A stretch of DNA of 15,403 nt from Bacteroidota bacterium. GTDB lineage: Bacteria > Bacteroidota > Bacteroidia > NS11-12g > UBA9320. The translations under genes and the position numbers were made by a program. Location of the stretch: positions 1 through 15,403 of the forward strand of contig DNBZ01000215.1 in assembly GCA_003484585.1 (NCBI GenBank), given 5' to 3'. The notes under the pieces are model-generated. The model was not told the origin of the DNA and did not search any database. It saw only the letters and a list, made by a program, of their open reading frames with translations. This document shows, piece after piece, positions 49 to 15,020 of the stretch (its first letter is position 1; every line of letters starts with the position of its first letter).

Positions 49-143
49 ATTATAGTAACTTTATAACTCGAGGTTTAACAGGCATAGAAGATTATGCTAG
101 AGAAATTGCTCCCATATATATAGAAGACGATCAGCCTGGTATC
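25..143 (+). CDS. In-frame 5' extension of the giant gene (start missing)
   Basis: The frame that begins with ATG at 144 is open upstream through base 25 and gives about 40 further residues with the same codon style as the rest of the gene (AGA for Arg; ATA, TAT and GAA frequent). It includes the short stretches YSNFITRG and YAREIAPIY, which look like ordinary protein. No ATG, GTG or TTG occurs in frame in this stretch, and the only stop upstream (15-17) lies in the left arm of the palindrome. No ribosome binding site precedes the ATG at 144. I infer that the gene begins beyond the window and that residue 1 in the numbering used here is an internal methionine. Confidence 0.7.
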
Positions 144-3100
144 ATGTCAGGAGACTGGTGGCTTCAAAACTTAGACCAAGTTCTTAGATCTGCAGGTTAT
201 TTAGTTCCAGGATCAATAGCATTCAAAGGAGCTAGTTTAGTTGGTAAGCAAATCATAGGACAGACATCTAAGGTTATGTCCAATGCTATTACAGGACAGA
301 AAGCAGCTCAAGTATTAAACGCAGGATCGGCTTTAGGATCTGCAACTATGCTTAACTACTCAGAGCATGCTAAATCTGCAGAGATGCACATAGCAGATAA
401 CCTAGAAGAACTTACACAGTTCTATGTAACTCAAGGGCAAGACTTTGAGCAGGCAAGAGGGCAGGCGTCTAAAGTGTTGTCAGGGCAAGCAGCAGATATA
501 ATAAAAGGCGGTAGAGTAAATATTCTATGGCAATCCATATCACAAGCAAATTTATTTAGAGGAGTAGCACACAGTAGAAAGTTTGGCATACTTAAAGAAG
601 GTACTAAAAACAGAACAGCTAAAGATGCATTCCAAAAACTAGCAGTAGAGGTTCCTACAGAAGCTGCAGAAGAAGTTACAACTGGTTTCTTTGAGACAGA
701 GGCTGAGTATGAGCTAGCTAGAGAGATGGATAAAACTCCTGCAGACTACAGACCGGCGTATGAAAGATTTGCAGAGCATGTTACAAGTTATAGAGGTATA
801 ACGGAAGGACTATTGGGTGCGCTAGGTAGTGTACCTTTAAGTGTTGGTTCTTCTATAATGCAAAAGAAATCTAACATTGATGCACTAGACCAAATTAAAA
901 AAACAAAAACAGCTTTAGGTGCATCTGGAGAAGAGATACGAAATCTTAATAAACAACAAGTTAGAGAGCATGCAATCTTTAATTCTCTTAGAGGTACAAT
1001 GGGTAACTTTATGGAGATACTTGAAACCTATAAAAACGCTAGCGCAGAAGAAGCAAGCGATTTAGGATTTGAGTCTAACTATAAAGAACTAGCCGATGAG
1101 TATACAGCAGATGCTAAGTTTATAGAAGACGTTATAAATAACGAATTAATGAACCCGCTTAGAAATAATGAGGCGGAAGCATTTATACTAGTAAATAATA
1201 GGCTAAATGAGTATTATGCTTTAGAGCAAATTCAAAAGTATAAGAACGAAATAAACGAACTAGAGGCAAAAAGAGAAAAGCTATTCTCAGACATTGAAAA
1301 CAATGTAGAGGATAGAGCGCTCCATGATATGCGTAACGCAGCTATCCAAAGAGGGGCCCTAGAAAGAACTATTCAGCAATTTAAAGATGGTATAACTGAA
1401 TTAGAAAAGGAAAATCGCCCACATACAAAAGAATATAACGAAACTCTTCAAGGAGAACAAAAGAACTTAAAAGACGCTGAAGCAAAATTAAAAGCGCTTG
1501 AGGCTACTTTAGTAAAAAATATAAATGACTATTCTAACAGTAATGATATAACAGCTCAGGAGACTGCAGCAAAGATAGCAGAGCTAGAAAGTGCTGGTGA
1601 TATAGATTCACAAGTAGAGTTATATAAAAGTATGTTAGAAGGCGCTAAAATACGCCGTAAAAACAATACTGAGAGGTACGAAGAACTAGTTGCTAACCCT
1701 GACATATTAAAACAAGAGGGGGAGAAAGCTATTAAGGAAGCTCAGAAACAAAAAGAAGAGGAAGAAAAGGCTAGAAAAGCTAAACAAAAAATTAAAAGGA
1801 AGCAGGAAAACAAAGCTGCAGAAGAAAAGACTAAGCAAGAGGATGCTATAAAACAAAAACAAAGCGGGCAACCTAAGTCGGATGCTCAAGCTATGGCAGA
1901 TCAAGAAGCTCCTCTAACAGCAGGTGCACCATTTGGTGCTCCGGCAGAAGGCTCTCCAGTAGTAGATAAAGCATCTGATCTAGAACAAAAAAGGCAAGAA
2001 GAACTTGAAGCTTTATCATTTGATAAAGCCACTCAAATGCAATTAGATTCTTATAAGAAAAAAGACAAAGCAAGGTATACAAGAGAATTAATTAATGCCG
2101 CTAACAAATCTGCAAAAGGAAGTAAAATAGTTAATAAATATGCAGCACAAATAAAATTATTAGATCCTAATGCTACTATAGCAGAAAGGGTAATGGCTAA
2201 AAAGTTCTTAGAAGATGGAGGAGCTTATAGTCTTGCTGAATTGTCACAAATTGAAGGAAGTATTAACAATATTTTAAGTGAAGAGATAAATAGTGACTAT
2301 GATAATCTAGTAAAAGCATTCTATGATGCAGAGGTAAAGGCTGCAGCTGAAAAAGAATCTGTCAGTCCAGATCAGCCTCAAGCATTCTCTTCTCCTGTCT
2401 TTGACGGAGACGTAAATAATGGTGGAGAAGACTTAGAGGGTAGCAGTGAAATAAACCAAGATAATAGCAATATAACTCCTAAGTCGTTTAACCCGTACTT
2501 TGAGGTAAACGAAGAAAACCAAAAAGGTAGACAAACAAACTCTTCATCCTCAGTGGCATACTTATCTGTTCCTTATAGAAGAGTAGATATTGATGGGACG
2601 GTAGAGAATAGAAGTTTATCTAATACTAAGACTGAAGACTCTAAACTAGTTGAATCTAGCACAGCACTACCGCCTGGCTCTGAGGTTACACTTAAGTTAG
2701 TAGATGGTTCAGATGTTCCGGTAACTAAGGACAGACTCAAGGCAATGAAAGATGAGGATGTAGATAAGTTAGCGGTTGCTATATATCAAAATGGTAAGAA
2801 AGTAGGCTCTCTACACACTACAAAGTGGATAGAAGCTAAAGATACTGGGGGTAACTTAATTAATACTGCGCCTGGTAATCTTGAGCAAGAACTACAGAAA
2901 GCTAAAAATATCCGTAGAGCTATAGCTAGAACTGCAGATGAAAATAGCGAGATTAAAACAAAGGTTGCTTTTAAAGGGCACGGTAAAGTATTACCTCTCT
3001 ATGCAGAAGACTCTACTACAGGTAACTTACTACTAATAGATGGAAATCTACAAAAGATAAATAAGTCAGTTGATGCAGCTTTCCCTGATGCAGATAATGT

Positions 3101-6100
3101 ACAACTAGGTGTTGTAAATGGTGGTAATATATATGTTGGGGAGTTTGCGCTAAAAGAAGAGACTGTAATAGATCTTAACGACGGTAACTATACTGACGGT
3201 AGAGTAGTTGCAAACCTTCCTACGCCAAACGGAAAAGTATTCCCAACAATATTATTTGTTGACAACATAACAGAAGGACAAGCAAATACTATTATAGGTG
3301 CTGCAACTTCTTTCCAAAACCAACAAACAGAAACCTACGACACTATAACTGATGAAACAGGTATACAGTTTGGTAGAGAAGGAGATGCAGAGGGGCTGCA
3401 TAAGTTTGTTAATAGATATGTGCACTCTAAGAAATCATTCTACCGTTTAGATACAACCGAAGAGGGTAGATTAGCACAAGGATCAATATTAGTCCACACT
3501 CCGCAGTTAGCTGCGTCACAGTCTGGGCAAGTACAAGGTATGCTACAAATTATAGATGTAGATAACAGAATTATGTACACTAATGATCCTTTGTTCTTTG
3601 AAAACAATCCTCAGTTTGTAACAAACAACAAGATACTTCAAATAAAAGATCTTAGAAAAGAAGCAGACTCACAGGAGGCTTCAAAGCTTTTACAACAAAA
3701 GCTTGCCAACGTTAAGAGCGATGCCATAAACAAACCTGGTACATTTAAAGATGTATCTCTAAATATTGATGGTAGTGTAGATGGCGTAAGTACACACTCA
3801 TCTTACAATGCATTCAAAGCACAACAGTTAAAGACTGATATAAACGGTACAAACTTTATTCAGAAGAACGACGGCACTAGAGAGTATACATATATGACTC
3901 AGCCAATAGTTGTTTTAGATACTTCGTTTGCTGAAGACAATGGTGTACGAGAAGATTCAGAAGATGCAAACGACTCTGCTTCAGAGTTATCATTTGCTTC
4001 ACCTGTATTTGAAGGGCAGAGCGAAAGAGATGATGAAGCTCAGATAGAAAACTATAAAGATGATGCTATAGCCAAAGCTATGCGGGAGCAGTTATCTGAA
4101 AGATTCTTTGATACAAAGATTATCAGTTTGACTCAGCAGGTAGAGGCAATAGACTCTATGTTTGCAACCTACTCTAAAAACATAACTAATCATAGCTTCC
4201 AAGCAATCTCTAAACTTATAAAAGCAGAGTTGCAAAAAGAAGTTGACAAGCTTAAGATACAAACTAAAAGAAAGTTAGCACTACAACACCTTCTTGAGAA
4301 CTACGATGCTAAAGCTGGAAAAGTTACAGTAGAAGGAATAATGCTAGAGAAACTAGCAAAGCTGAGTATACTACCAATAAAAGAAGGGTTTAGAAGTAAG
4401 GATCTTACAGATGCACAGATAGATGAAATATTTGCAGAGGCATTAGACTCAGACGGGTTTACGCAAGAAGACTTTGTAAAAGAAATCTATGACTTTGAGT
4501 TTTATAAGACAAACAAAAAGATGACTGCGTCGTCTAGTATAAAACTTTTACTATCCGGTGTAACTAAAAACGAAAAGTCTTGGCTAGGTAAAAACTTTAA
4601 GAAAGGTGTAGCTTACCAAGAAAGTTATGATACTCTAAAAGCTACATTAGCAAGAGTACCAGGAACATTTAAAGATCAGTTGCAGGCAATACAAAAAAGG
4701 GCCCAAGACTCTAACAACCCTGTATACGATAAAGTACTTAAGTTGCTAGAAGGTGTAAATACATCAGAGAGTTTAAAGCGGCAGTTTGTTGTAGCAATGT
4801 CTGGTACAAGATTAAACTTTGTATTTTTAAAAGTAGAGCCAACTGTTCTAGGCGGTAAGTCTAGAGTGATGGAAGTGGATAGATATAATACCACAGTTAA
4901 CATTAAAAACAAATGGTTTAGCAATCTACTAGATTCTAAACTTACAAAGACAATGTCAGTTGGAGGTATTCCTGAAGTTATAATTAACCAGGCTTACAGA
5001 GAAAAGCTACAAAGTGACTACAGAGAGCAGTTTATCAAGTATAGAAATTCAAACCAACTTAACTCAGATGAGTTTGTTAGGATAGTACAGAAGTACTTGA
5101 ATGAAATGGGTATAGAGGTTCCATTTGAAGGACTTAAATTCCTAGCTAATCCTAAGACAACCGCTAAGGATAGAAACATTTACTTAAGAAGAAGCTCAAA
5201 GTGGTCTTCTCACGTAGACCCAGACTTAACTACAGGGGGAGCGCCTAAAGGTATGATGTCTTCACTATTTAAATCTTTTAGAATAGACGAAGCTTTGTTC
5301 TCTGAGCAGCAGTTAAAAAAATTAAAGACTGATAAACAAACTAGACAAGAGCTAGAAGAAAATAAAGAAGCTTTTGAAACTCTAGTAGAGGCAGAAAAAA
5401 GAGGTGGATTTATATACACAACAAACCCTTATGATGGTCCTAACTACGAAAAGGTAGTCTACGGATTGTTAGGGCTTACAGTAGACTTTGAAGGGGCTAT
5501 CTACGGAGATAGCTTTAGAGACTCTAAAGGTAACATGATTTACCCATACCAAAATCACTTTGGTATTAGTAGAATGCTATCTGACTATGTAACAGATAAA
5601 GAGCAGCTAGACAGCTTACTAAAGTTAAGCTACAACCAAAACTCTGTGTGGGGTAAAGGATTACAGAATGACAGTAATTACTTAGAGGTTGTAATGTTTG
5701 ATGCAACAAACTTTAACAATAATGTTACTAATAGAAACGAGCAAGGTAAATTCTTACAAGAGGTAAGTTTCTTTAATGCTTTTGCAAACCAAGGTAATGC
5801 AGACGGATATTTCTTCCCTATAACTACGGCGGATAAAGATGTTGCACCTTTAATAAAAGCTCCTAAGCTTAAAGATATTGCTGCAAACCTAGTGGTACAA
5901 GAGGGCCAGGTTATAGATATAAATGAGCAGATACTTGAGCAAATATATGGATACGCCTTTGATGAGTACAATAGAATAAAGAATTACAAAAAGATAGAAG
6001 GTGTAAACAGGGGCCCTTATGAACAAGGTGCTGAATACTTTTACATGTTTAACTACCTGAACGCTTATACAGCAGAGTCTAAGGATGTGATGGACATGAC

Positions 6101-9100
6101 TACGGCGGAAGCAGAGGCGTACATACGTGAGACTGTAAAACAAAATGTCATAGCTCAAATAAACTCTCACATAGCAAGATTAAAGGAACTTGGCGTAGAA
6201 ACTAAATTCTTAGATCAAACATATATAAGAAAGAACTTTGCACAGCAGACAGCTTTATATAAAACAAAAGAAGATAGACTTGCAGGAGCTATTGCTGATT
6301 ACAACTTAAACTACATTGTGTCAAACAATGAGATTGTTAAGTTATTTGGTAATGACCCGGCACATGCTTACAAGAGAAGTAAGAAAGATGGGGCAACATT
6401 AAAAGATCATATAAAAGAAACGCTTAACAATTACGAAAAACGTAAAGCAGATCTAATATCTCCTGCATCTACTCCTCAATATACAACTCCTAATGTAACT
6501 ATTGCTACAGCAATGGATGCAATTAAAGACGGTATAGAAAGAACCGATGCACAAGAGTATGGTACTATTAGCGAACTTATAGAATCTAAGCTATCTTCAG
6601 GTAAACTGCCAGAAGAAGTGGCAAATAGAATTCTAAAAGCTTATAAAGACGCTATAGCAGACCCTAATAATCCAAGAAACTTCTTTAAACTTAAAGATGT
6701 ACTAACTGAACAGGAAATAGAAAAGTATAAAAAAGTACTAATGGCTGATAAGCCTGTATTTGTACAAAATGATATACGTCCAGATCAGGATAGTAATAAC
6801 AGACTGTTTAGAAAGTCTCACATAAGATACTTATGGCCTGAAGAAACCACAGCACTTGGATTAGATGATCTACGTGTTGCTATGGAAACTGTAGGTATAG
6901 ATAGATTAGGACACTTAAGTTCTGATAAAACAGGAGCTGTAAATCCAGTTGAGATCTATGATGCAACTGGTAAAGTTAAGCCGTTAGAAGAAGTTATAGA
7001 ACTGTTAAAGACTGGCTCTCGAGTAATTAAAAGAGCAGGACTAGGTATACAGCAAGAAAAAGGTGCAGCTGATGGAGCAATAAGCTTCTCTACACAGTTA
7101 GATGTATTACTATTTGATGATATGCTAGGTAAGACTTTGTCTACAGGTGAATCTTACGCTGATTTAAGAGATCAGAAAGAAGCGTTGATGATTAGATTCA
7201 TGAAGCTAGGAGCTAAGAAGTTATTCAACAAGTTAGGTATACAGCAAAATGAAGACGGCTCTACTTATATTCCTAATCCTACAACTCTTGCAAAGATGCT
7301 TAAGGAAGAGGCAATATCTCGTAACTGGAGCTTCAAAGATATATCAGAACTAGAGTTAAAAGATGTACAGGAAGCTGTAGAAAGAGTATTTAAATCTCCT
7401 CTTACGTTTAACCACGCTAGGAAAAACATAGACTCTTTAGTACTGTCTTTAATAAACAAAGAAATCACCAAGATTAAACTACCAGGTGAGTCTTTAGTGC
7501 AGGCGTCATCTGCAGGATTTGAAGCTAGAGGTGGATCTGGATGGGATGGATTTGTATCCGACGGAAGTTTTGATAAGATTAGAAATGGTATAACTTTCTT
7601 AGAAACAGAAAATGCATTTGATGAATCTGTAGGGTTACAGGGTACTAGAGTAAAGAATGGTAAGGTATTGTCAGCACAGATACTTCTTAGTCCGGTATTT
7701 ACAGATTCAAAAGCTAATACAATAGATTTAACTTCTAAAAAGTATACAACAATAAAGAATGGTGTTAGATACTTAAAAGCAGATATGCTTCCACAAGAGC
7801 TGCGAGAGAGAATATTGTATCGTATACCTGGACAAGGTAAGCCATCTGTATCTCCAGTAGAGATAGTAGGGTTCTTACCTAGATCTTCTACATCCACAGT
7901 GATTGTACCTGACTCTGTTATAGATCAAATGGGTAGTGACTTTGACTGGGATACTGCTTACACTTATATGAAACAATATGAGGTAACTGAAGATAATAAA
8001 ATAGTTGTAAAGTCTGAGATCTCTGAACTAGAGCAGTTGCAAGATGAGTACTATGAGTTATTCAAAAAAATAATATTTGATAAGACAACGGTAAACGCTA
8101 CAACTAAACTAGATAACTTAGATCTTAAAACTACTGCAGATATTGTAGATAATATTGTAGGTGAAGAGTCTATGATAAACGATCCTTCATACGTAACTAC
8201 AAATATTGACAATACTATCAGTCAAAGAACAGGTAAACAACTTATTGGCCCGGCTTCTTTAGCGGCAGTTATGCATGCAGCATTACAAGGTAAAGGTATT
8301 ACTATAAATATATCTAGTAAAACTTTGCAGCCAACTCCATTTGTATTCTTTGAAGGGGGATCTAAAAATAAAACATTAGAACTAACTACTATATCTTCTT
8401 ATGGAGGTAAGTCTACACCAACAGCAGCACTTGCTGACGCCGTAAGAACAGCATCTGATAATATACGTACAATACAAAATGCTGCGGTAGATAATGCAAA
8501 CGAAGCTGTACTTGCTAGGGCTGGTATTAATAATGCAACTATTGATGTAGCATTATTTACACTGATGTATAAAGACACAACAACTGCAGACTCAATACAT
8601 GCAGAACAGTTAGTGTATTTCTTACGACAGGAAGCTATAAACATATACTCAGAGCAATTTGATTACTACTCTGCACAGATAGAAGGTGGATTTAGATCTG
8701 AGGAACAAATTAGAAATGATGCCTTTAATGCTACTATGACTAAGCTTGCAGAAAAAGCTGGTATAGACGCGGAAGAAGATTACACTAACTTTATAGATGA
8801 GTATAGAAAAGGAAGTGACGGAGAGTTTAGAACGTTTAGCTCTCAAGACTTTATAGATCAGCTAAGAACTAGTAATAAACCAAACCCAAGCTACTATAGA
8901 ACTCAAATGGCTATACTAGCAGGGTTTAAACAGTTACAGAACTCTTCTGACCCTATTAGAAAGCTACAAAGAGGTATCATGTCTCCAAGAACTAAAGGTA
9001 TTGGTAGTACAATCTTTGATGCTCAAAGAGCTATTGACAATATGGAGGAAATCTTTGACAAAGGGTTACGAAGTATTGGAGGACTAGAAAACTTACAAGG

Positions 9101-12100
9101 CGGGCAACTAGAAGAGATGTACAATCAGTTTGCAAAAGTATACGACAGCCTGTCTTCTATATTACCGTTCAGCAACAGAAGCCACAAACAAATGATAGGA
9201 TTGTGGCAACAGTTTACTGGAGTAGAAAATGTTAGTCAAAAGACTAGAGAAGAATTGTTTAATGCATTATTAAATAAATCATTCTCAAGAGCATTTGAAA
9301 AAACATTTAATGAGGATATTGTAGAAGCTAGACATAGACTTACAACAAACATTGAAAATAATATAGCAACAAGAGTTGCTGAGATACAAAAAACAGAGTT
9401 TGGTAAGAGAAACTTATTTATAAGTAGATTGATACCAATCAATGCTAACGCAGGTGTACCGGCTAGTATTAGTTATGTGAATTCTAAGCAGGATGATATT
9501 GCAGATCAAATGGCTGTAGACTTTGTAGCATTATACGAGTCTGTAATTCCAGGACACAGAGAATTGTTTGAAGACATTGTTAAGTATACCTACATTACAG
9601 GTGGTGTGCAATCTGCAGGTAACTTCTCTAAGTTCATGAACACTGCATATCTAGATCAGGTAGGATTCTATGACTCATTACGTCAAGAAGAGAGATTACT
9701 AAACTCTCCAACTTCTCCAGAAGCTCCAAATATTATGGAGGTAATGGTAGAATTTTTACAGCACAACCCTCACAGAGCTGTAACTTTATCTGAAAAAGAC
9801 TTTAAGAAAATGTCTGTATCTCCAATACAGACAATAGATTACAATAATAAAACTATAAACTACGAGTTTACACTTAAGCAGCCTGATGCTAGCCAAGAAC
9901 TGAACAGAATTCTGTATGCAGATGATGAAGGTACTAGACGGTATATAGAGGTTATAGCTATTGAAGGTAAGACAGAGAACGAGCTGTTCCAAAAGATGGG
10001 TGTAGATGAGAATGGTGATATTGTATTTAGAAGAATAGGTAAGAAAGGATTCCAGACATCTAGCTTTGTAAAAGTTAATGAGTATGCAGGAGTAGATAAG
10101 TTTACAAAAGATGGCATTAAGATCACTGAGCAGAGTGTACTCCCTCAGAACAATGTTCCTAAACCATTAGAAGTAGGTACAAGATTACCAGAAATATCTA
10201 AGGATACACCACCTGTAGATAAAAGTGTGCTAGGATTAGATCCTGTATCTATGACAGTTTCTTCGCCTGGTAGAGCCGGCGTAAAAGAAGTGCTTAACGC
10301 AGTTAGCGAAGAAACTACTTCTGAGACACAAGCTCTACTAAGTAAGATATTGCTATCTAATATAGACACAAAAGGTAGTGCAATAAAGCAAATAGTTATT
10401 GAGGATGGTATAAAAAATAGAGAGGGCAAGGGTGCCTACGGGGCTTACAGACCTAAGAGCGGTACTGTTTCTCTAGACAGAGATACCATTATTAGACACC
10501 CGCACAAATTGCAAGAAACCATACTGCACGAAATACTACACGGATTCTTAGTTGAAGAGATTGCTAATCCTGACAGTGAGTTTAGTAGAAAAATAAAATA
10601 TCTAACTAAAGCTGCAAACACTGCTTTTAAAGCAGCTGTAAAAAGAGGAGATATTGTAAAAGGAACTTTAGAATATAAAATTCTAGAGTATGCATTTAGC
10701 AACCCTCAAGAGTTTGTTACAAATGTAATGACTAAATCACAGGTGCAATCTTTCTTAAATACAGTGCCTGCTAAAAAGAACCTATTTACAAGATTCAAAG
10801 AGCTTGTAACAGAATTCTTAAACAGCATTGGAATAGATCTAGGAATAGATATAAACAAAGATAGTTTACTTGCAGAGGCTGTTAATGATATTATGACTTT
10901 TATAACAGAGACTCCTGCTTCTAACGAGGTTAAACAAGTTGTAAAGAAAGCAGAGGATAATGCTGCAGGAGTTCTACCGCTTAACCTTTATTTAGATGAA
11001 GCTGCCCACGTATTGGCTAGCTACGAAAAAATAAAATCAGGGGAATACACTCAAGAAGAGTTTAAAGAAGCAATGCAACAGTATAGGTATCAGCAATTGT
11101 TGTCTCCAGTATTTACTGGAAGAAAGCCTGACTTGCAAGCTAAGATAAGTACGGTAGAAGAGTTGCTATCTGTGTATAGAGAAAGAGCAGATAAACTTAA
11201 AAGTAAATTAACTGATAAAGTTCTTACAACCAAAGAAGGTAAAAAGATGCAAGAGCGTCTAAATAAATACGAAGATGAAATAAGCACATTGTCATCTAAC
11301 AAGGCCTTTGGAAGTTTAGAAAGAATAATATCTATTCATTTAGCGTTTGCTCAAAATATTGCATCAGCTAAAAATCCTACAAAGGTAGAGCTAAAAGAAG
11401 CTCTTAATATTGTAGACATGTATGACTACGGAAAGGTTACTAGTAAATACCTAGATGTAAAAGATAGAACTACAAGAAACAGATTCAATAATCTATTAAA
11501 AGAAAGTAGTGATGTTGCTAGTGGTATTAAAGTAAGACTTCTAGATAATCTTGTTGACATGGCTGTAGAGGTTATTAATGCAGAAATGCCAGAAACAGAG
11601 CAAGTAGTTAGAGAAGACTTAATAGCTATGGAAGGAGAGAATACTCTTAAAACTTCTTTCTTAGATCTTAGTAAATTCCAGCACCCAATCGTAAGAACTT
11701 TAGACAAGTTTTTAAAATCAGCTAATAGAAACTCAGATTCTGAAATACAAGCTAGATTTATGGAGATTGAGTCTGCAATGGACGACATAAGAAATAACCC
11801 TGCATTTAAAAAAGACCCTAATATATTCTTCCAAAAGAATGAAAAAGGAGAACTTACAGGATACTTTATATCTCCTTACAGCTCAAAGTATAATACAGTT
11901 AAAAACAAAGCATTTGCTAGATACTACAAAAGACTTCAAAATGCTAAAACTCCAGCTGCTAAGAATACAGCAACTGCATTACTATACAGAGATCTGAATA
12001 AGATAGAAGTAACAGTTGATATTAGATGGTTTATAGATGGAGTGGGTAAATTTAACTCTCCATTTAAATCTAAGGAAGAGTATATAGAATACTTGGACGG

Positions 12101-14420
12101 TCAAGTAGGAGGTGCAGAAGCTAGAGAAGAGTTGGTAGAGAACGCTATTAAAAAATACAATAAATATAAGATAGCTGAAGAGCAAAGAATGCTAGACATA
12201 GAGCTAGAAGTGTCTGGATCTGCAGGTAACTTACAAGAATTTCAAGAAGAGATAAATAGTAAACAAAGACAGTATAAAGAAAGACATAGTCCTATTTACT
12301 ATTTAAACGCTAGATATGGTGGAGGTAAAGCTCTTTCTAAGAACACAGGATACAAAGCAACGGTATCTGCTCCTGTAGGCAATAAACAGTACTACGATAA
12401 AAACTACCAGGAGATACAGAATAACCCTGAGCTTAAGAAGTTTCATGACTTCTACACAAATACAATGAAAGATTTAATGACATTGTTACCTGAAGGGTTA
12501 GTTTCAACTTTACCGGAAAACTTCTTCCCATATGCCCGTCGTGGATTTGTAGAGCAAGTTTCAAACGAAGGTGTTGACGCAATATTTTCAGCAATGAAAA
12601 AAACATCTATAAAAGATTACTTGTTTAATATAGACCAGGAAATTACTTTAGATCCTCAAATTGCTACAAAAGGTGTTAGAAATCCTGACACTGGGGAGAT
12701 AGAAAAGAATGTACCGGTTAGAATGTTAAAAGGAGATTCAAAGGAGAAGTCTTATGACATAGAGAAAGTAATGAAGATGTTTACAGCAATGTCTGTAGCA
12801 TATGATTACAAGTCTCAGGTAGAAGATAAAATCTTGTTACTTCAAAGAGTTCTTAGAGAGGCTGAAGAAATACAAATGGACTCCAAAGGAGATCCTATGA
12901 AAAGAAAAGTGGCTAGAAAACTTAAGCTAGACAGTAAAATAGGAGGTTTAAAAACTACTCAAGCAGCTGTAAAATACGCAATTGATTCTAAATTATATGG
13001 CGTAAGTACAGATATGGCAGAAAAAGGTATTGTATTCTCTAGAGAAGTTGCAGAAATCAAGCAAGAGTTTGAAAATCTCAAGACTAAGCTTGCAGCTGGA
13101 GAAATAGATGACAGTACATATTTACAAGAAAAATCAGTTCTTGATGAGCGCCTTAAAAAACTAGGTAAAAAACCTAAAAGTTTAAAAAAGCCTTTAGAAA
13201 GATTAGTTCAATATACGCAGTTAAAAGGATTAGGATGGAACCTAATGTCTGGGATAAACAACCTTAGTTTTGGTACGATAGCTAACTTTGTTCATGCGGC
13301 AGGTAATGAAGACTACACTACAGCCCAACTTACAAAGGCCTACGCGGTTATACTTAAACAACATGCGCCTGGAATAGCTAGTAAAGCTCAAAAACTTGCA
13401 GAAAAATATGGAATATTATTTGAGCAGTTAGATGCTTACTATGGTAAAAATAAAAATAGAACTAGGTTTAAGTTTATATCTAAGGTTGATCCATTCTATT
13501 TCCAAACAAGTACGGAATACATGAACCAGGTAGCTCCAATGGTAGCAAAGATGTACAACACAAAGATTGACGATAAAGGTAATACTTTGTATGACATGTA
13601 CGACGATGATGCAAACATCAAGCCTGAGTTTAAAGATGTAGCAGATGAGTGGACTAGTAAACTAGATGCAGAAACTAAAAATAAATTTACTGCGTTTAGA
13701 GATGCTACGATAGAAATGAATAAAGTAAACCACGGTAACTATGATCCAAACTCTGCTCTGCTAATTAAGAAAACTATTTGGGGTAGACTTGGTACTCAGT
13801 TTAGAACCTGGGCATTTGAAGGTATAAATACTAGGTGGGGAGAAAAAGTTTACAACGCTCAACTAGAAAGATATACTGAAGGTAGGTATAAAGCTTACTC
13901 TAAAGTAGGGTTTAAAGGATCTTTAGAAATGTTGATTAAAAGTATTTTAAATACATTAACTTTAGGATACGGAGTTTCTGACGCTAGTATGAGAGGAGAC
14001 ATAAAAGATGATCTTACTTTTGCAAATATGCGTAAGAATATGGCGGGTGTAAAATTCTATCTAGCTGTAACTGGAGCAGGAGCACTTCTAAAAGCTTTAG
14101 GAGAAGATGAAGATGATGAAGATACAGAGAAAACTCTAAGATTACTTCAAAATACATTCTTTAGACTAGAGCAAGATGGTGAGTTCTACATGAATCCAGG
14201 AACAGCTGCAGAAGTATTAAGAAATCCAGCGCCGGTAATGAAAACCATAAAAGATGCTACTAATGCAATAAGCGCTACGCAGGATTATATAATAGACAAA
14301 GAAGGATATGAAGATAGTAGGAGAGATCCTTTGAGTAAGAAATGGATGAAAGTAGTTCCATTTGGAAACTCAATTAGATCTATAGATTACTTAATGGAAA
14401 CTCAAATAGAAAAAGACTAA
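144..14420 (+). CDS. Giant crAss-like virion RNA polymerase multidomain protein (5' partial)
   Basis: This is a single frame of 4758 residues, probably more once the missing 5' end is added. In crAss-like phages proteins of this kind are packaged in the capsid and ejected with the DNA, and the polymerase part transcribes early genes. Visible layout: residues 1-250 mixed helical with hydrophobic stretches; 350-575 coiled coil, very rich in Lys and Glu; 590-770 and 1265-1300 acidic, probably disordered linkers; about 2290-2750 the RNA polymerase core with GIQQE, YRIPGQG (2559-2565) and GSDFDWD (2597-2603), the aspartates D2599, D2601 and D2603 being the expected metal ligands; about 3413-3550 a metallopeptidase-like domain with HEILH (3462-3466); about 4350-4758 the conserved C-terminal region of crAss-like giant proteins. 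It is far longer than the phi14:2 polymerase (roughly 2200 residues as I recall), so it appears to be a fusion of several ejected proteins. The four SPVF motifs are a special feature. The stop TAA overlaps the ATG of the next ORF. The polymerase assignment is firm; the roles of other regions are inference. Confidence 0.85.
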   Translation: MSGDWWLQNLDQVLRSAGYLVPGSIAFKGASLVGKQIIGQTSKVMSNAITGQKAAQVLNAGSALGSATMLNYSEHAKSAEMHIADNLEELTQFYVTQGQDFEQARGQASKVLSGQAADIIKGGRVNILWQSISQANLFRGVAHSRKFGILKEGTKNRTAKDAFQKLAVEVPTEAAEEVTTGFFETEAEYELAREMDKTPADYRPAYERFAEHVTSYRGITEGLLGALGSVPLSVGSSIMQKKSNIDALDQIKKTKTALGASGEEIRNLNKQQVREHAIFNSLRGTMGNFMEILETYKNASAEEASDLGFESNYKELADEYTADAKFIEDVINNELMNPLRNNEAEAFILVNNRLNEYYALEQIQKYKNEINELEAKREKLFSDIENNVEDRALHDMRNAAIQRGALERTIQQFKDGITELEKENRPHTKEYNETLQGEQKNLKDAEAKLKALEATLVKNINDYSNSNDITAQETAAKIAELESAGDIDSQVELYKSMLEGAKIRRKNNTERYEELVANPDILKQEGEKAIKEAQKQKEEEEKARKAKQKIKRKQENKAAEEKTKQEDAIKQKQSGQPKSDAQAMADQEAPLTAGAPFGAPAEGSPVVDKASDLEQKRQEELEALSFDKATQMQLDSYKKKDKARYTRELINAANKSAKGSKIVNKYAAQIKLLDPNATIAERVMAKKFLEDGGAYSLAELSQIEGSINNILSEEINSDYDNLVKAFYDAEVKAAAEKESVSPDQPQAFSSPVFDGDVNNGGEDLEGSSEINQDNSNITPKSFNPYFEVNEENQKGRQTNSSSSVAYLSVPYRRVDIDGTVENRSLSNTKTEDSKLVESSTALPPGSEVTLKLVDGSDVPVTKDRLKAMKDEDVDKLAVAIYQNGKKVGSLHTTKWIEAKDTGGNLINTAPGNLEQELQKAKNIRRAIARTADENSEIKTKVAFKGHGKVLPLYAEDSTTGNLLLIDGNLQKINKSVDAAFPDADNVQLGVVNGGNIYVGEFALKEETVIDLNDGNYTDGRVVANLPTPNGKVFPTILFVDNITEGQANTIIGAATSFQNQQTETYDTITDETGIQFGREGDAEGLHKFVNRYVHSKKSFYRLDTTEEGRLAQGSILVHTPQLAASQSGQVQGMLQIIDVDNRIMYTNDPLFFENNPQFVTNNKILQIKDLRKEADSQEASKLLQQKLANVKSDAINKPGTFKDVSLNIDGSVDGVSTHSSYNAFKAQQLKTDINGTNFIQKNDGTREYTYMTQPIVVLDTSFAEDNGVREDSEDANDSASELSFASPVFEGQSERDDEAQIENYKDDAIAKAMREQLSERFFDTKIISLTQQVEAIDSMFATYSKNITNHSFQAISKLIKAELQKEVDKLKIQTKRKLALQHLLENYDAKAGKVTVEGIMLEKLAKLSILPIKEGFRSKDLTDAQIDEIFAEALDSDGFTQEDFVKEIYDFEFYKTNKKMTASSSIKLLLSGVTKNEKSWLGKNFKKGVAYQESYDTLKATLARVPGTFKDQLQAIQKRAQDSNNPVYDKVLKLLEGVNTSESLKRQFVVAMSGTRLNFVFLKVEPTVLGGKSRVMEVDRYNTTVNIKNKWFSNLLDSKLTKTMSVGGIPEVIINQAYREKLQSDYREQFIKYRNSNQLNSDEFVRIVQKYLNEMGIEVPFEGLKFLANPKTTAKDRNIYLRRSSKWSSHVDPDLTTGGAPKGMMSSLFKSFRIDEALFSEQQLKKLKTDKQTRQELEENKEAFETLVEAEKRGGFIYTTNPYDGPNYEKVVYGLLGLTVDFEGAIYGDSFRDSKGNMIYPYQNHFGISRMLSDYVTDKEQLDSLLKLSYNQNSVWGKGLQNDSNYLEVVMFDATNFNNNVTNRNEQGKFLQEVSFFNAFANQGNADGYFFPITTADKDVAPLIKAPKLKDIAANLVVQEGQVIDINEQILEQIYGYAFDEYNRIKNYKKIEGVNRGPYEQGAEYFYMFNYLNAYTAESKDVMDMTTAEAEAYIRETVKQNVIAQINSHIARLKELGVETKFLDQTYIRKNFAQQTALYKTKEDRLAGAIADYNLNYIVSNNEIVKLFGNDPAHAYKRSKKDGATLKDHIKETLNNYEKRKADLISPASTPQYTTPNVTIATAMDAIKDGIERTDAQEYGTISELIESKLSSGKLPEEVANRILKAYKDAIADPNNPRNFFKLKDVLTEQEIEKYKKVLMADKPVFVQNDIRPDQDSNNRLFRKSHIRYLWPEETTALGLDDLRVAMETVGIDRLGHLSSDKTGAVNPVEIYDATGKVKPLEEVIELLKTGSRVIKRAGLGIQQEKGAADGAISFSTQLDVLLFDDMLGKTLSTGESYADLRDQKEALMIRFMKLGAKKLFNKLGIQQNEDGSTYIPNPTTLAKMLKEEAISRNWSFKDISELELKDVQEAVERVFKSPLTFNHARKNIDSLVLSLINKEITKIKLPGESLVQASSAGFEARGGSGWDGFVSDGSFDKIRNGITFLETENAFDESVGLQGTRVKNGKVLSAQILLSPVFTDSKANTIDLTSKKYTTIKNGVRYLKADMLPQELRERILYRIPGQGKPSVSPVEIVGFLPRSSTSTVIVPDSVIDQMGSDFDWDTAYTYMKQYEVTEDNKIVVKSEISELEQLQDEYYELFKKIIFDKTTVNATTKLDNLDLKTTADIVDNIVGEESMINDPSYVTTNIDNTISQRTGKQLIGPASLAAVMHAALQGKGITINISSKTLQPTPFVFFEGGSKNKTLELTTISSYGGKSTPTAALADAVRTASDNIRTIQNAAVDNANEAVLARAGINNATIDVALFTLMYKDTTTADSIHAEQLVYFLRQEAINIYSEQFDYYSAQIEGGFRSEEQIRNDAFNATMTKLAEKAGIDAEEDYTNFIDEYRKGSDGEFRTFSSQDFIDQLRTSNKPNPSYYRTQMAILAGFKQLQNSSDPIRKLQRGIMSPRTKGIGSTIFDAQRAIDNMEEIFDKGLRSIGGLENLQGGQLEEMYNQFAKVYDSLSSILPFSNRSHKQMIGLWQQFTGVENVSQKTREELFNALLNKSFSRAFEKTFNEDIVEARHRLTTNIENNIATRVAEIQKTEFGKRNLFISRLIPINANAGVPASISYVNSKQDDIADQMAVDFVALYESVIPGHRELFEDIVKYTYITGGVQSAGNFSKFMNTAYLDQVGFYDSLRQEERLLNSPTSPEAPNIMEVMVEFLQHNPHRAVTLSEKDFKKMSVSPIQTIDYNNKTINYEFTLKQPDASQELNRILYADDEGTRRYIEVIAIEGKTENELFQKMGVDENGDIVFRRIGKKGFQTSSFVKVNEYAGVDKFTKDGIKITEQSVLPQNNVPKPLEVGTRLPEISKDTPPVDKSVLGLDPVSMTVSSPGRAGVKEVLNAVSEETTSETQALLSKILLSNIDTKGSAIKQIVIEDGIKNREGKGAYGAYRPKSGTVSLDRDTIIRHPHKLQETILHEILHGFLVEEIANPDSEFSRKIKYLTKAANTAFKAAVKRGDIVKGTLEYKILEYAFSNPQEFVTNVMTKSQVQSFLNTVPAKKNLFTRFKELVTEFLNSIGIDLGIDINKDSLLAEAVNDIMTFITETPASNEVKQVVKKAEDNAAGVLPLNLYLDEAAHVLASYEKIKSGEYTQEEFKEAMQQYRYQQLLSPVFTGRKPDLQAKISTVEELLSVYRERADKLKSKLTDKVLTTKEGKKMQERLNKYEDEISTLSSNKAFGSLERIISIHLAFAQNIASAKNPTKVELKEALNIVDMYDYGKVTSKYLDVKDRTTRNRFNNLLKESSDVASGIKVRLLDNLVDMAVEVINAEMPETEQVVREDLIAMEGENTLKTSFLDLSKFQHPIVRTLDKFLKSANRNSDSEIQARFMEIESAMDDIRNNPAFKKDPNIFFQKNEKGELTGYFISPYSSKYNTVKNKAFARYYKRLQNAKTPAAKNTATALLYRDLNKIEVTVDIRWFIDGVGKFNSPFKSKEEYIEYLDGQVGGAEAREELVENAIKKYNKYKIAEEQRMLDIELEVSGSAGNLQEFQEEINSKQRQYKERHSPIYYLNARYGGGKALSKNTGYKATVSAPVGNKQYYDKNYQEIQNNPELKKFHDFYTNTMKDLMTLLPEGLVSTLPENFFPYARRGFVEQVSNEGVDAIFSAMKKTSIKDYLFNIDQEITLDPQIATKGVRNPDTGEIEKNVPVRMLKGDSKEKSYDIEKVMKMFTAMSVAYDYKSQVEDKILLLQRVLREAEEIQMDSKGDPMKRKVARKLKLDSKIGGLKTTQAAVKYAIDSKLYGVSTDMAEKGIVFSREVAEIKQEFENLKTKLAAGEIDDSTYLQEKSVLDERLKKLGKKPKSLKKPLERLVQYTQLKGLGWNLMSGINNLSFGTIANFVHAAGNEDYTTAQLTKAYAVILKQHAPGIASKAQKLAEKYGILFEQLDAYYGKNKNRTRFKFISKVDPFYFQTSTEYMNQVAPMVAKMYNTKIDDKGNTLYDMYDDDANIKPEFKDVADEWTSKLDAETKNKFTAFRDATIEMNKVNHGNYDPNSALLIKKTIWGRLGTQFRTWAFEGINTRWGEKVYNAQLERYTEGRYKAYSKVGFKGSLEMLIKSILNTLTLGYGVSDASMRGDIKDDLTFANMRKNMAGVKFYLAVTGAGALLKALGEDEDDEDTEKTLRLLQNTFFRLEQDGEFYMNPGTAAEVLRNPAPVMKTIKDATNAISATQDYIIDKEGYEDSRRDPLSKKWMKVVPFGNSIRSIDYLMETQIEKD
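1198..1875 (+). other. Coiled-coil, Lys/Glu-rich segment of the giant protein
   Basis: Residues about 352-577 contain three long helical stretches with heptad-like spacing of Leu/Ile (for example INELEAKREKL and KDAEAKLKALEATL), ending in an almost uninterrupted run of Lys, Glu, Gln and Ala around residues 524-575. Such segments commonly serve as oligomerisation or spacer rods in phage ejection proteins. No enzymatic motif is visible here. The antisense ORF opposite this run is a simple consequence of the purine-rich codons. Confidence 0.65.
7020..8400 (+). other. RNA polymerase catalytic core (double-psi beta-barrel region) within the giant protein
   Basis: Residues about 2293-2752. The segment GLGIQQE followed by STQLDVLLFDDML resembles the first conserved block of crAss-like polymerases, and YRIPGQG ... 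VEIVGFLP ... VIVPD ... GSDFDWD is the second. The DxDxD triad corresponds to the magnesium-binding aspartates of the beta'-like double-psi barrel shared with cellular polymerases and QDE-1-type RNA-dependent polymerases. TGKQLIGPASLAAVMHAAL, about 95 residues later, matches the block that follows the active site in this family. The middle position of the triad is Trp (W2602), where I expect a small or aliphatic residue such as Gly or Ile. Block boundaries are approximate. Confidence 0.85.
10380..10800 (+). other. Zinc-metallopeptidase-like domain within the giant protein
   Basis: Residues about 3413-3552. A GAYRPKSGTVSL strand precedes ETILHEILHG, giving the zinc-binding HExxH signature H3462, E3463, H3466. 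About 57 residues later NPQEF places E3523 where a third, glutamate zinc ligand would sit, and MTKSQVQSFL follows. The order of strand, HExxH helix and xxEF helix is the pattern of the metallopeptidase-like domains embedded in large phage polyvalent and ejection proteins. Both histidines and the glutamate base are intact, so activity is plausible. The substrate is unknown: self-processing, processing of other virion proteins, or attack on host components during entry are all possible. Confidence 0.65.
13190..14417 (+). other. Conserved C-terminal region of crAss-like giant proteins
   Basis: Residues about 4350-4758. The order KGLGWNLMSGINN, then TTAQLTKAYAVI, then a STEYMNQVAPMVAKM helix, then HGNYDP, then GRLGTQFRTWAFEGINTRWG is one I recognise from the C-terminal parts of giant proteins encoded beside crAss-like polymerases. 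A hydrophobic stretch at about 4633-4652 (GVKFYLAVTGAGALLKAL) is followed directly by an acidic run (EDEDDED), which could be membrane-interacting. A role in forming or passing through the ejection channel is inference; recognition rests on recall of family patterns, not on an alignment. Confidence 0.6.
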
Positions 14421-14584
14421 TGAAGATAGAATTTGGAATAAATTGGGCTAAGGGTCTAGTATTTGGAGTTAGGCACTTTAAGCCAGAGGAGCACGCTCCC
14501 TACTACGAAATACAAATTTTTTTAGGATTAATACAAATTTATACAATTATAGACAATGGCAACACTGACGATAACAGTAACTGA
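14420..14584 (+). CDS. 54-residue mini-protein, paralogue of the ORF at 15020
   Basis: This ORF was found by reading the gap between the two larger genes. It starts at an ATG that shares a base with the TAA of the giant gene (TAATG), which suggests translation by re-initiation or coupling, and ends at TGA 29 bases inside the next gene. From Gly12 to Asp45 it aligns without a gap to residues 10-43 of the ORF at 15020, with 10 identities in 34 positions and mostly conservative changes elsewhere: GxxxG, a basic-aromatic pair, Pro, then YxExQ and LG followed by alternating hydrophobics ending in Tyr. The last nine residues have no counterpart and lie in the overlap. Composition suggests beta strands. 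No function is recognised; such small ORFs occur between phage structural genes. Confidence 0.65.
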   Translation: MKIEFGINWAKGLVFGVRHFKPEEHAPYYEIQIFLGLIQIYTIIDNGNTDDNSN

Positions 14585-15020
14585 AGCAGTTACATTAGGA
14601 GACGGTAGTACAGACCGTGGGACAACAAATACCCAAACTGTAACAATAAATGAAGTAGATCACCGTATCATGGACATAACTACAACTGAAGTTGCAGTGC
14701 TTAAATTTGGAGGCAATAATGGTGCAGGTACATTTAAAAATGGTACAGTAAAATATCTACGGATTACAAATTTAGATAGCACTAACTTTGTAACATTAAG
14801 AATTCAAGGATCAGATGCAGAGTACTTTGTAAAACTAGAGCCAGAAGATCATTTTATACTAGGTAATACTCAAATGGATGCCCATGAAGACTCTGTAGAT
14901 CCTGCTAGAGATGTAGCCGGGACTAGTTTAGCGGCCGGGCTAGGAAATATAAATACTATATACGCAGACGCAGACACTGCAACTTGCCAAGTTGAATACT
15001 TTTTAGGATCTACAGACTAA
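14556..15020 (+). CDS. Beta-rich putative virion structural protein
   Basis: 154 residues starting MATLTITVTEAV, with no Cys in the first half, few Lys and many Thr, Val and Ile in short alternating strands. The centre (about residues 55-103) reads AGTFKNGTVKYLRITNLDS, then FVTLRI, YFVKLEPEDHFILGN, a pattern I associate with small conserved proteins near tail or capsid genes in marine and environmental phages. No signal peptide, membrane helix or catalytic motif is seen. Position directly after the giant ejected protein and on the same strand supports a particle component (decoration, fibre-associated or tail accessory). It begins 29 bases before the end of the preceding mini-ORF and its TAA overlaps the ATG of the next mini-ORF, so all four rightward genes are probably one transcript. 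No Shine-Dalgarno sequence is visible; the upstream region is very AT-rich. Confidence 0.85.
   Translation: MATLTITVTEAVTLGDGSTDRGTTNTQTVTINEVDHRIMDITTTEVAVLKFGGNNGAGTFKNGTVKYLRITNLDSTNFVTLRIQGSDAEYFVKLEPEDHFILGNTQMDAHEDSVDPARDVAGTSLAAGLGNINTIYADADTATCQVEYFLGSTD

Follow-up and report, generated by a model that had tools for sequence, protein, structure and literature searches.

Phages have to move protein cargo of several megadaltons through a narrow tail and in the correct order, and how they do so is an open question. In the Crassvirales, the virion RNA polymerase (vRNAP) belongs to a cassette of cargo chains, A, B and C, represented by gp47, gp50 and gp49 of PhiCrAss001 (crAss001) and, for B, by the phi14:2 chain solved as Protein Data Bank (PDB) entry 6VR4. 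A study of crAss001 virions (Bayfield et al., PMC10172136) reports the detection of gp47, gp50 and gp49, to which it gives masses of 262.5, 276.9 and 154.5 kDa, includes a non-reduced sample for mass spectrometry, describes disulfides between tail proteins and in gp57, and expects the cargo protein gp45 to be ejected N-to-C and the cargo to unfold in part within the tail. Here we describe the window, the whole analysed stretch of 15,403 nucleotides (a single stretch, bases 1-15403 of contig DNBZ01000215.1, within a 376-contig assembly), which is dominated by one open reading frame (ORF; 144-14420, plus strand). From its first ATG this ORF encodes a protein of 4758 residues without a cysteine (0 in 4,758), which, as judged from its homologies, is the fully fused A-B-C vRNAP cargo of a divergent crass-like phage.

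Residues 1375-3168 (bases 4266-9647, plus strand) are homologous to residues 217-2170 of crAss001 gp50, the B protein (hhalign probability 99.3, E 4.1e-20). This segment contains, at residues 2599-2603 (7938-7952, plus strand), the sequence DFDWD, the DxDxD motif of crAss-type vRNAPs, which we take to be catalytic, and both marks of a Crassvirales-type B protein, profile homology to gp50-like proteins and the DxDxD motif, are therefore present in the window protein. Residues 3671-4699 (11154-14240, plus strand) are homologous to the separate C protein: the C protein of locus L005 aligns from its residue 630 (99.5%) and crAss001 gp49 from its residue 551 at window residue 3819, gp49-type C proteins matching residues 3819-4698 (99.6%, profile alignment). 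Gp33 of Flavobacterium phage Fpv1 matches residues 1204-3589 (100.0%, profile alignment), and the N-terminal part gives a weak profile match with A proteins (25%). The labels A, B and C are assigned from position, length and the DxDxD motif, for some chains also from profile alignment; the hhalign comparison of the window family with the Intestiviridae BC chain is left out, as its alignment shrank to one or two columns. Scanned against Pfam and PHROGs, the window protein had no hit above threshold, megablast of the window against phages gave no match, tblastn with the first 1,291 residues likewise gave none, and a PDB search with the window-family profile returned six weak matches (keratins, a designed construct and SNF5).

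The homologues of the window protein were obtained by a protein search (P0002-P0010) and from IMG/VR, which yielded a 96-kb contig (L002, G001) with a 4,898-residue homologue close to P0003. On this contig of the closest relative, the major head protein is matched by tblastn in 149 phage records, most of them crass-like and none reaching 60% identity, and a portal protein and a terminase are named by PHROGs. Of genes of this kind the window has the cargo gene alone, and its own assembly yielded no head protein gene. The layout of the cassette varies: A, B and C are three genes in most Steigviridae seen (with B interrupted in cr108 and cr116), A and B+C are found in Intestiviridae, A+B and C in Suoliviridae and Fpv1, and A+B+C in the window family.

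In the split relatives, the chain ends that face each other carry cysteines. A junction was scored as having both cysteines if one lies among the 11 C-terminal residues of the upstream chain and the other among the 6 N-terminal residues of the downstream chain. This holds for 28 of the 28 junctions counted in 23 phages (6 Steigviridae, 6 Intestiviridae, 7 Suoliviridae, 2 Fipvunavirus, Dulem virus 41 and Leptolyngbya phage Lbo-JY46). Seven of seven further junctions, in five loci examined after these limits had been fixed (L005, L026, L027, L029 and cr109), follow the same rule, giving 35 of 35 (A/B 8, B/C 9, A/BC 6, AB/C 11 and Leptolyngbya 1). The outer ends have no cysteine, neither at the A N-termini (0 of 19) nor at the C C-termini (0 of 22), and the readable outer ends of the later five loci agree (0 of 3 and 0 of 5). 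Among control ORFs of the same loci, counted without the three loci having recoded stops (L021, L022 and L035), a cysteine occurs in the first 6 residues of 6 out of 214 and in the last 11 residues of 21 out of 214. The interior of the cassette chains is poor in cysteine, at 0.12% of residues versus 1.15% in the control ORFs. All four cysteines of phi14:2 (5,398 residues) and both of L005 (5,608 residues) are at junctions, as are four of the five in crAss001 (6,102 residues), and the best 120 of 1,658 gp50-like hits, many of them closely related, have a cysteine at both ends (first 8 and last 12 residues). By eye, the chain tails are alike only in this cysteine.

Before counting, three pairs were set aside: the intron- or frame-split pairs cr116 Ba/Bb (cysteine upstream, none downstream) and cr108 AB1/B2 (neither end with cysteine), and Leptolyngbya g1/g2 (neither end with cysteine, g1 not being established as a member of the chain). 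L025 (the same length as DAC15, 100% match) and L028 (a fragment) were left out, and the one-sided ends of cr10 AB, ctcc615 BC and L006 C, all three of which conform, were not counted as junctions. Since A and B are encoded on opposite strands in five phages (crAss001, DAC15, cr116, L026 and L027), the junction is one between proteins and not between messages, and readthrough, frameshift or translational coupling is rejected as the cause of the A/B terminal cysteines. In the families seen, it is the cysteine-bearing ends of the split chains that are joined in the fusions, and the fused joints of the window protein have none; being fused and without cysteine, this protein is not itself a split cassette with junction cysteines. 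In the window family, no cysteine is found in P0001 (the window protein), P0002, P0003 and the L002 protein, and one each in P0004 and P0005; P0006, which has an unrelated cysteine-bearing tail, and P0007, which starts mid-domain, were not used for the cysteine rule. No description of the junction-cysteine rule was found among the matches listed in the crass-like phage literature (titles and abstract openings), where subscription journals are mostly uncovered and an earlier description is possible. Word searches find no mention of cysteine or disulfide in PMC11054128, PMC12386605 and PMC12633501, nor in the accessible part of PMC5512222.

The explanation that we favour, and consider rather probable, is that the ORF encodes a fused A-B-C cargo whose split relatives staple their chains by head-to-tail disulfides, that these staples are replaced here by fusion, and that linkers bearing the short motif SPVF, described below, lie at or near the joints. 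We are also inclined towards the wider proposal that crass-like phages inject the vRNAP as a covalent daisy chain, in which cysteine-stapled chains are threaded through the tail and freed by reduction in the host cytosol, fusion and stapling being interchangeable and the rest of the chains being largely purged of cysteine for unambiguous pairing. In such a mechanism, the single cysteines on facing chain ends of the split relatives would pair as head-to-tail disulfides, a bond that we infer from where these cysteines lie, and A, B and C would pass from the capsid through the tail as one continuous thread. The reducing cytosol of the host would then break the disulfides, so that the chains separate, and the cysteine-poor interior would limit mispairing. 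In the window phage the same thread would be built by gene fusion, and because fusion makes the thread, no cysteine would be needed in its protein. The linkers with the second and fourth copies of SPVF would lie between or near formerly separate chains, the first copy would be in another inter-segment linker, and this S-P-hydrophobic motif would most likely be an exposed spacer or contact element.

Cysteine content was also seen in other giant proteins. The giant phage-type proteins P0131-P0150 have 0-4 cysteines each in 1,515-4,717 residues, and cysteine depletion may be general among ejected proteins; several of them carry Pfam domains of the polyvalent-protein kind, and no such domain was found by Pfam in the window protein, which by this mark is not a polyvalent protein. 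The giant proteins from other sources (P0134-P0139 and P0142-P0150) are cysteine-poor and have no terminal cysteine, so that the staple is not general among giant ejected proteins. P0009 and P0010 are distant giant proteins with DFDVD that carry cysteine at residue 3 and as their final residue, in the manner of a middle chain, and P0009 has AAA and 2OG-Fe(II) oxygenase matches. Thioredoxin-type genes are annotated near the cargo cassette in 6 of 26 annotated records (cr111, p-crAssphage, cr8, cr108, Rudgehvirus and ctcc615).

The motif SPVF had been pointed out in a preliminary description of this DNA, as recurring four times along the giant protein and perhaps dividing it into segments. The four copies, at residues 750, 1286, 2516 and 3654 (bases 2391, 3999, 7689 and 11103), are confirmed in the single ORF, as is a weaker copy, SPVVD, at residue 604 (1953-1967, plus strand), a few residues before which PLTA.SP[IL] is found in five of six aligned homologues. 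It is also correct that even one SPVF is unexpected by composition (expected count 0.022) and that the codons vary among the four copies; a DNA repeat is rejected, as the codons differ. Four SPVF copies have a chance of 9.4e-9 if the 4-mer is fixed beforehand and of 0.0015 when corrected for 160,000 possible 4-mers, SPVF is the only 4-mer of the window protein that occurs four times, and none of 1,200 shuffles (400 each of the whole protein, of 200-residue blocks and of 50-residue blocks) yielded any 4-mer equally improbable.

The four copies differ in their surroundings and in their conservation. Copies 1 (SPVFDG, residues 750-755, 2391-2408) and 2 (SPVFEG, residues 1286-1291, 3999-4016, 5' of the polymerase segment), both on the plus strand like the two others, lie in acidic, probably disordered linkers, as had been proposed, with net charges of -9 and -10 over stretches of 46 residues and coil at a pLDDT of about 25 in a low-confidence model. 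Copy 3 (SPVFTD, residues 2516-2521, 7689-7706) was correctly placed near the polymerase core: it lies within the polymerase segment and precedes DFDWD by 83 residues. Copy 4 (SPVFTG, residues 3654-3659, 11103-11120) does follow the metallopeptidase-like region, 192 residues past its HExxH motif, and is flanked by the zincin-like segment and the C segment; the segments on its two sides are made as separate B and C proteins elsewhere. Two AlphaFold runs of six sequences each have mean pLDDT values of 39.5 and 41.6, which is too weak for judging the burial of the copies.

At the site of copy 1, SP[VI][FL][DE]G is found in seven of seven covering proteins (the window protein and six homologues), the residues preceding it drift, and conservation over six proteins peaks at the motif (0.88, flanks 0.29 and 0.62); no matching chain border was identified for this copy in the relatives. 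Conservation at the other copies is near that of one or both flanks: 0.67 (0.60 and 0.68) for copy 2, 0.83 (0.80 and 0.83) for copy 3 and 0.58 (0.54 and 0.40) for copy 4. The copy 2 site reads SPIM, SPIY (two), SPKF, SPKL and SIKI in six homologues. In seven proteins the copy 3 site reads SPVF (four), SPVL, NPIF and SSVF, in a well-conserved stretch, and in the partial sequence P0007, which covers only copies 3 and 4, it reads KPHF. For copy 4, six proteins have SPVF (two), SLNY (two), SPNF and SPML, P0007 has SPAI, and P0006 has no sequence there. Copy 3 aligns to an EPLM stretch of crAss001 gp50, where the per-residue confidence of the alignment is low, and it is best read as reflecting the polymerase fold and not a linker motif, being polymerase sequence unrelated to the other copies. 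Because it is inside the polymerase segment, it is to be dropped from the set. The idea of the motif as a segment divider holds, then, in that some copies are between segments that are separate in relatives, but it fails for copy 3 and for the sites of copies 2 and 4, which are not kept as SPVF in homologues.

It is possible, though we lean the other way, that the four copies are a coincidence of one fold-constrained copy and three drifting linker copies. With copy 3 removed, three copies are not significant after correction (1.7e-6 x 160,000 = 0.28), and exact copies number at most two in any homologue: SPVF occurs 1, 1, 1, 0, 1 and 0 times in P0002-P0007 (P0006 and P0007 being partial) and twice in the L002 protein. 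Against a coincidence, copy 1 is conserved and the relaxed motif SP[VI][FYLM] is enriched in five of six proteins, among them the window protein (5, 4, 3, 3, 1 and 2 occurrences in P0001-P0006 for an expected 0.15-0.24, the fifth in the window protein being SPIY at residue 4049). As compared across these homologues, the four copies are not one conserved set.

Two fusion joints are of concern for the linkers. The A/B joint is placed at residues ~1158-1279 (3615-3980, plus strand) by extrapolation from B-protein N-termini and the DxDxD distance, not by alignment. The B/C joint must be contained in the stretch between the B and C homology, residues 3169-3670 (9648-11153, plus strand). Fpv1 gp33 is aligned to residue 3589 with 68 of its residues left, so the joint as read by Fpv1 is in residues 3590-3670, the last 81 residues of the stretch, near 3657; copy 4 is then within it, and 0.07 chance copies are expected there. 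As read by phi14:2 or cr55, the joint is upstream of the zincin-like segment. This segment (residues 3400-3600, window 10341-10943) contains HEILH, a zincin-like HExxH motif, at residues 3462-3466 (10527-10541, plus strand), followed by NPQEF at residue 3520, and is homologous to a part of p-crAssphage gp45, which is annotated as fused to a zincin protease. It matches the end of AB in Fpv1 (93%), the end of A in p-crAssphage (96%) and the inside of the C chain of phi14:2 (95%) and cr55 (92%); no match above 10% was found in the other chains tested.

Several points weigh against the favoured explanation. Virions assemble in a reducing cytosol. The cargo-chain disulfide is a proposal from cysteine positions, no bond being observed, and the accessible part of the crAss001 virion study, which detects the three cargo chains, reports no disulfide between them (PMC10172136). 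The 35 junctions are not 35 independent events, because the phages are related. Some chains have abundant interior cysteines (24 of 26 in cr7; the B chain of L027 has 22 in all), and the BC chain of crAss002 (gp33, L019 15088) has no N-terminal cysteine as annotated; the cysteine is present with a start 32 codons later (MSC, as in relatives), which is probably the correct one. As for the linkers, copy 2 (1286) is near the extrapolated A/B joint but outside its range, and the B/C joint is certain only to residues 3169-3670, for which 4 x 502/4758 = 0.42 chance copies are expected, so that a copy in it is no surprise. The zincin-like segment changes its place within the cassette and the reading of the joint differs by relative, for which reasons the nearness of copies 2 and 4 to the joints is only suggestive. 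Finally, the set of four exact copies is specific to the window protein and is not kept in homologues, copy 1 being the part of the proposed conserved motif that stands.

The terminal cysteines could instead be metal ligands or thiol contacts that hold the subunits together non-covalently, which we consider unlikely. The evidence consists of positions and not of bonds, and a shared metal site would likewise need both sides; there are, however, two cysteines at each joint, inspection of the tails by eye shows no further conserved residue beside them, and the low interior cysteine content fits an avoidance of mispairing. Equally doubtful is the suggestion that the cargo is loaded by a further virion protein (portal, tail or chaperone) which docks on SPVF copies 1, 2 and 4. 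The acidic linkers of copies 1 and 2 are probably exposed and the copy 1 motif is kept in all seven proteins, as such docking would have it, but the motifs drift at copies 2 and 4. As for other proteins of the same phage, among 76 ORFs of at least 90 residues on the contig of the closest relative, exact SPVF outside the giant protein is found only in one protein of 247 residues, and the two genes adjoining the giant gene, directly upstream of it, have no SPVF.

Processing by zincin-like domains has been proposed for such proteins by Iyer et al. (PMC5512222). A polyprotein could be cut at the linker SP[VI]F by the zincin-like segment or another phage protease, regenerating A, B and C. The distance of 192 residues from HExxH to copy 4 resembles that from HExxH to the chain end in crAss001 A, Fpv1 AB and three Intestiviridae A chains (184-222 residues), in Rudgehvirus (209) and in FpV4 (222), and copy 4 is within the B/C joint if read by Fpv1. 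Polyprotein cleavage is nevertheless the least probable of the explanations considered, as other chains depart from this spacing (HExxH, located by pattern alone, is 147 residues before the end in Dulem A, 255 in cr8, 551 in cr271 and mid-chain in Suoliviridae AB), the segment moves between chains, the SPVF motif is not kept at copies 2 and 4 and is within the polymerase segment at copy 3, the cassette chain ends of crAss001, cr111, cr55 and Fpv1 are without it, and Pfam finds no peptidase in the window protein, despite HEILH. Within the favoured explanation of a fused cargo that replaces stapled chains, cutting at the linkers by the zincin-like segment is the main alternative role for them, in which it would be the fused form's substitute for disulfide reduction.

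The 5' end of the giant gene coincides with the start of the contig. The N-terminus of the homologues is 151-154 residues longer than the called ATG, and 31 of these codons are present in the window as in-frame coding sequence 5' of this ATG (51-143, plus strand), in agreement with the longer homologues. The true N-terminus is beyond the contig start and the gene is truncated at its 5' end; because the contig begins within the gene, residue numbers of the giant protein are only relative. The first 48 bp (1-48, no strand) are a perfect 24+24 palindrome, probably an assembly artefact. On the 3' side of the giant gene there is an ORF of 154 residues (14556-15020), without a Pfam match and with a PHROGs match at chance level, and an ORF of 148 residues is at the equivalent place in L002. 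The ends of the G001 contig (L007 5417-8018 and L011 12720-15252) have small-gene blocks that are similar by first residues, possibly a duplicated module or end redundancy.

If the favoured explanation is true, a covalent yet reversible chain of virion proteins would answer the question of cargo order in a virus group that is among the most abundant in the human gut. The staple would also account for the cysteine-free fused giant protein, and the SPVF-bearing linkers would gain a place in a defined architecture.

Compared with known systems, the window protein resembles the polyvalent proteins and N4-like vRNAPs described in PMC12633501 and PMC5512222, in that these are giant ejected multidomain proteins with zincin-like domains; it differs from them in its polymerase type and domain set. 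Fpv1 gp33/gp34 (Fipvunavirus) is the best-scoring split relative of the A-B part (100.0%), having A and B fused and the zincin-like segment before the chain end, whereas its separate C chain is weakly matched. Of the two Fpv1 chains, gp33 carries a single cysteine, at its penultimate residue, and gp34 carries two, at residue 3 and in its interior, where the window protein has none. With the Crassvirales cassette (crAss001 gp47, gp50 and gp49; phi14:2 B, 6VR4) the window protein shares homologous B and C, the DxDxD motif and the N-to-C order A-B-C, the homology of A being weak (25%). It is unlike this cassette in having A, B, the zincin-like segment and C in one cysteine-free chain, whereas the split relatives place that segment in different chains.

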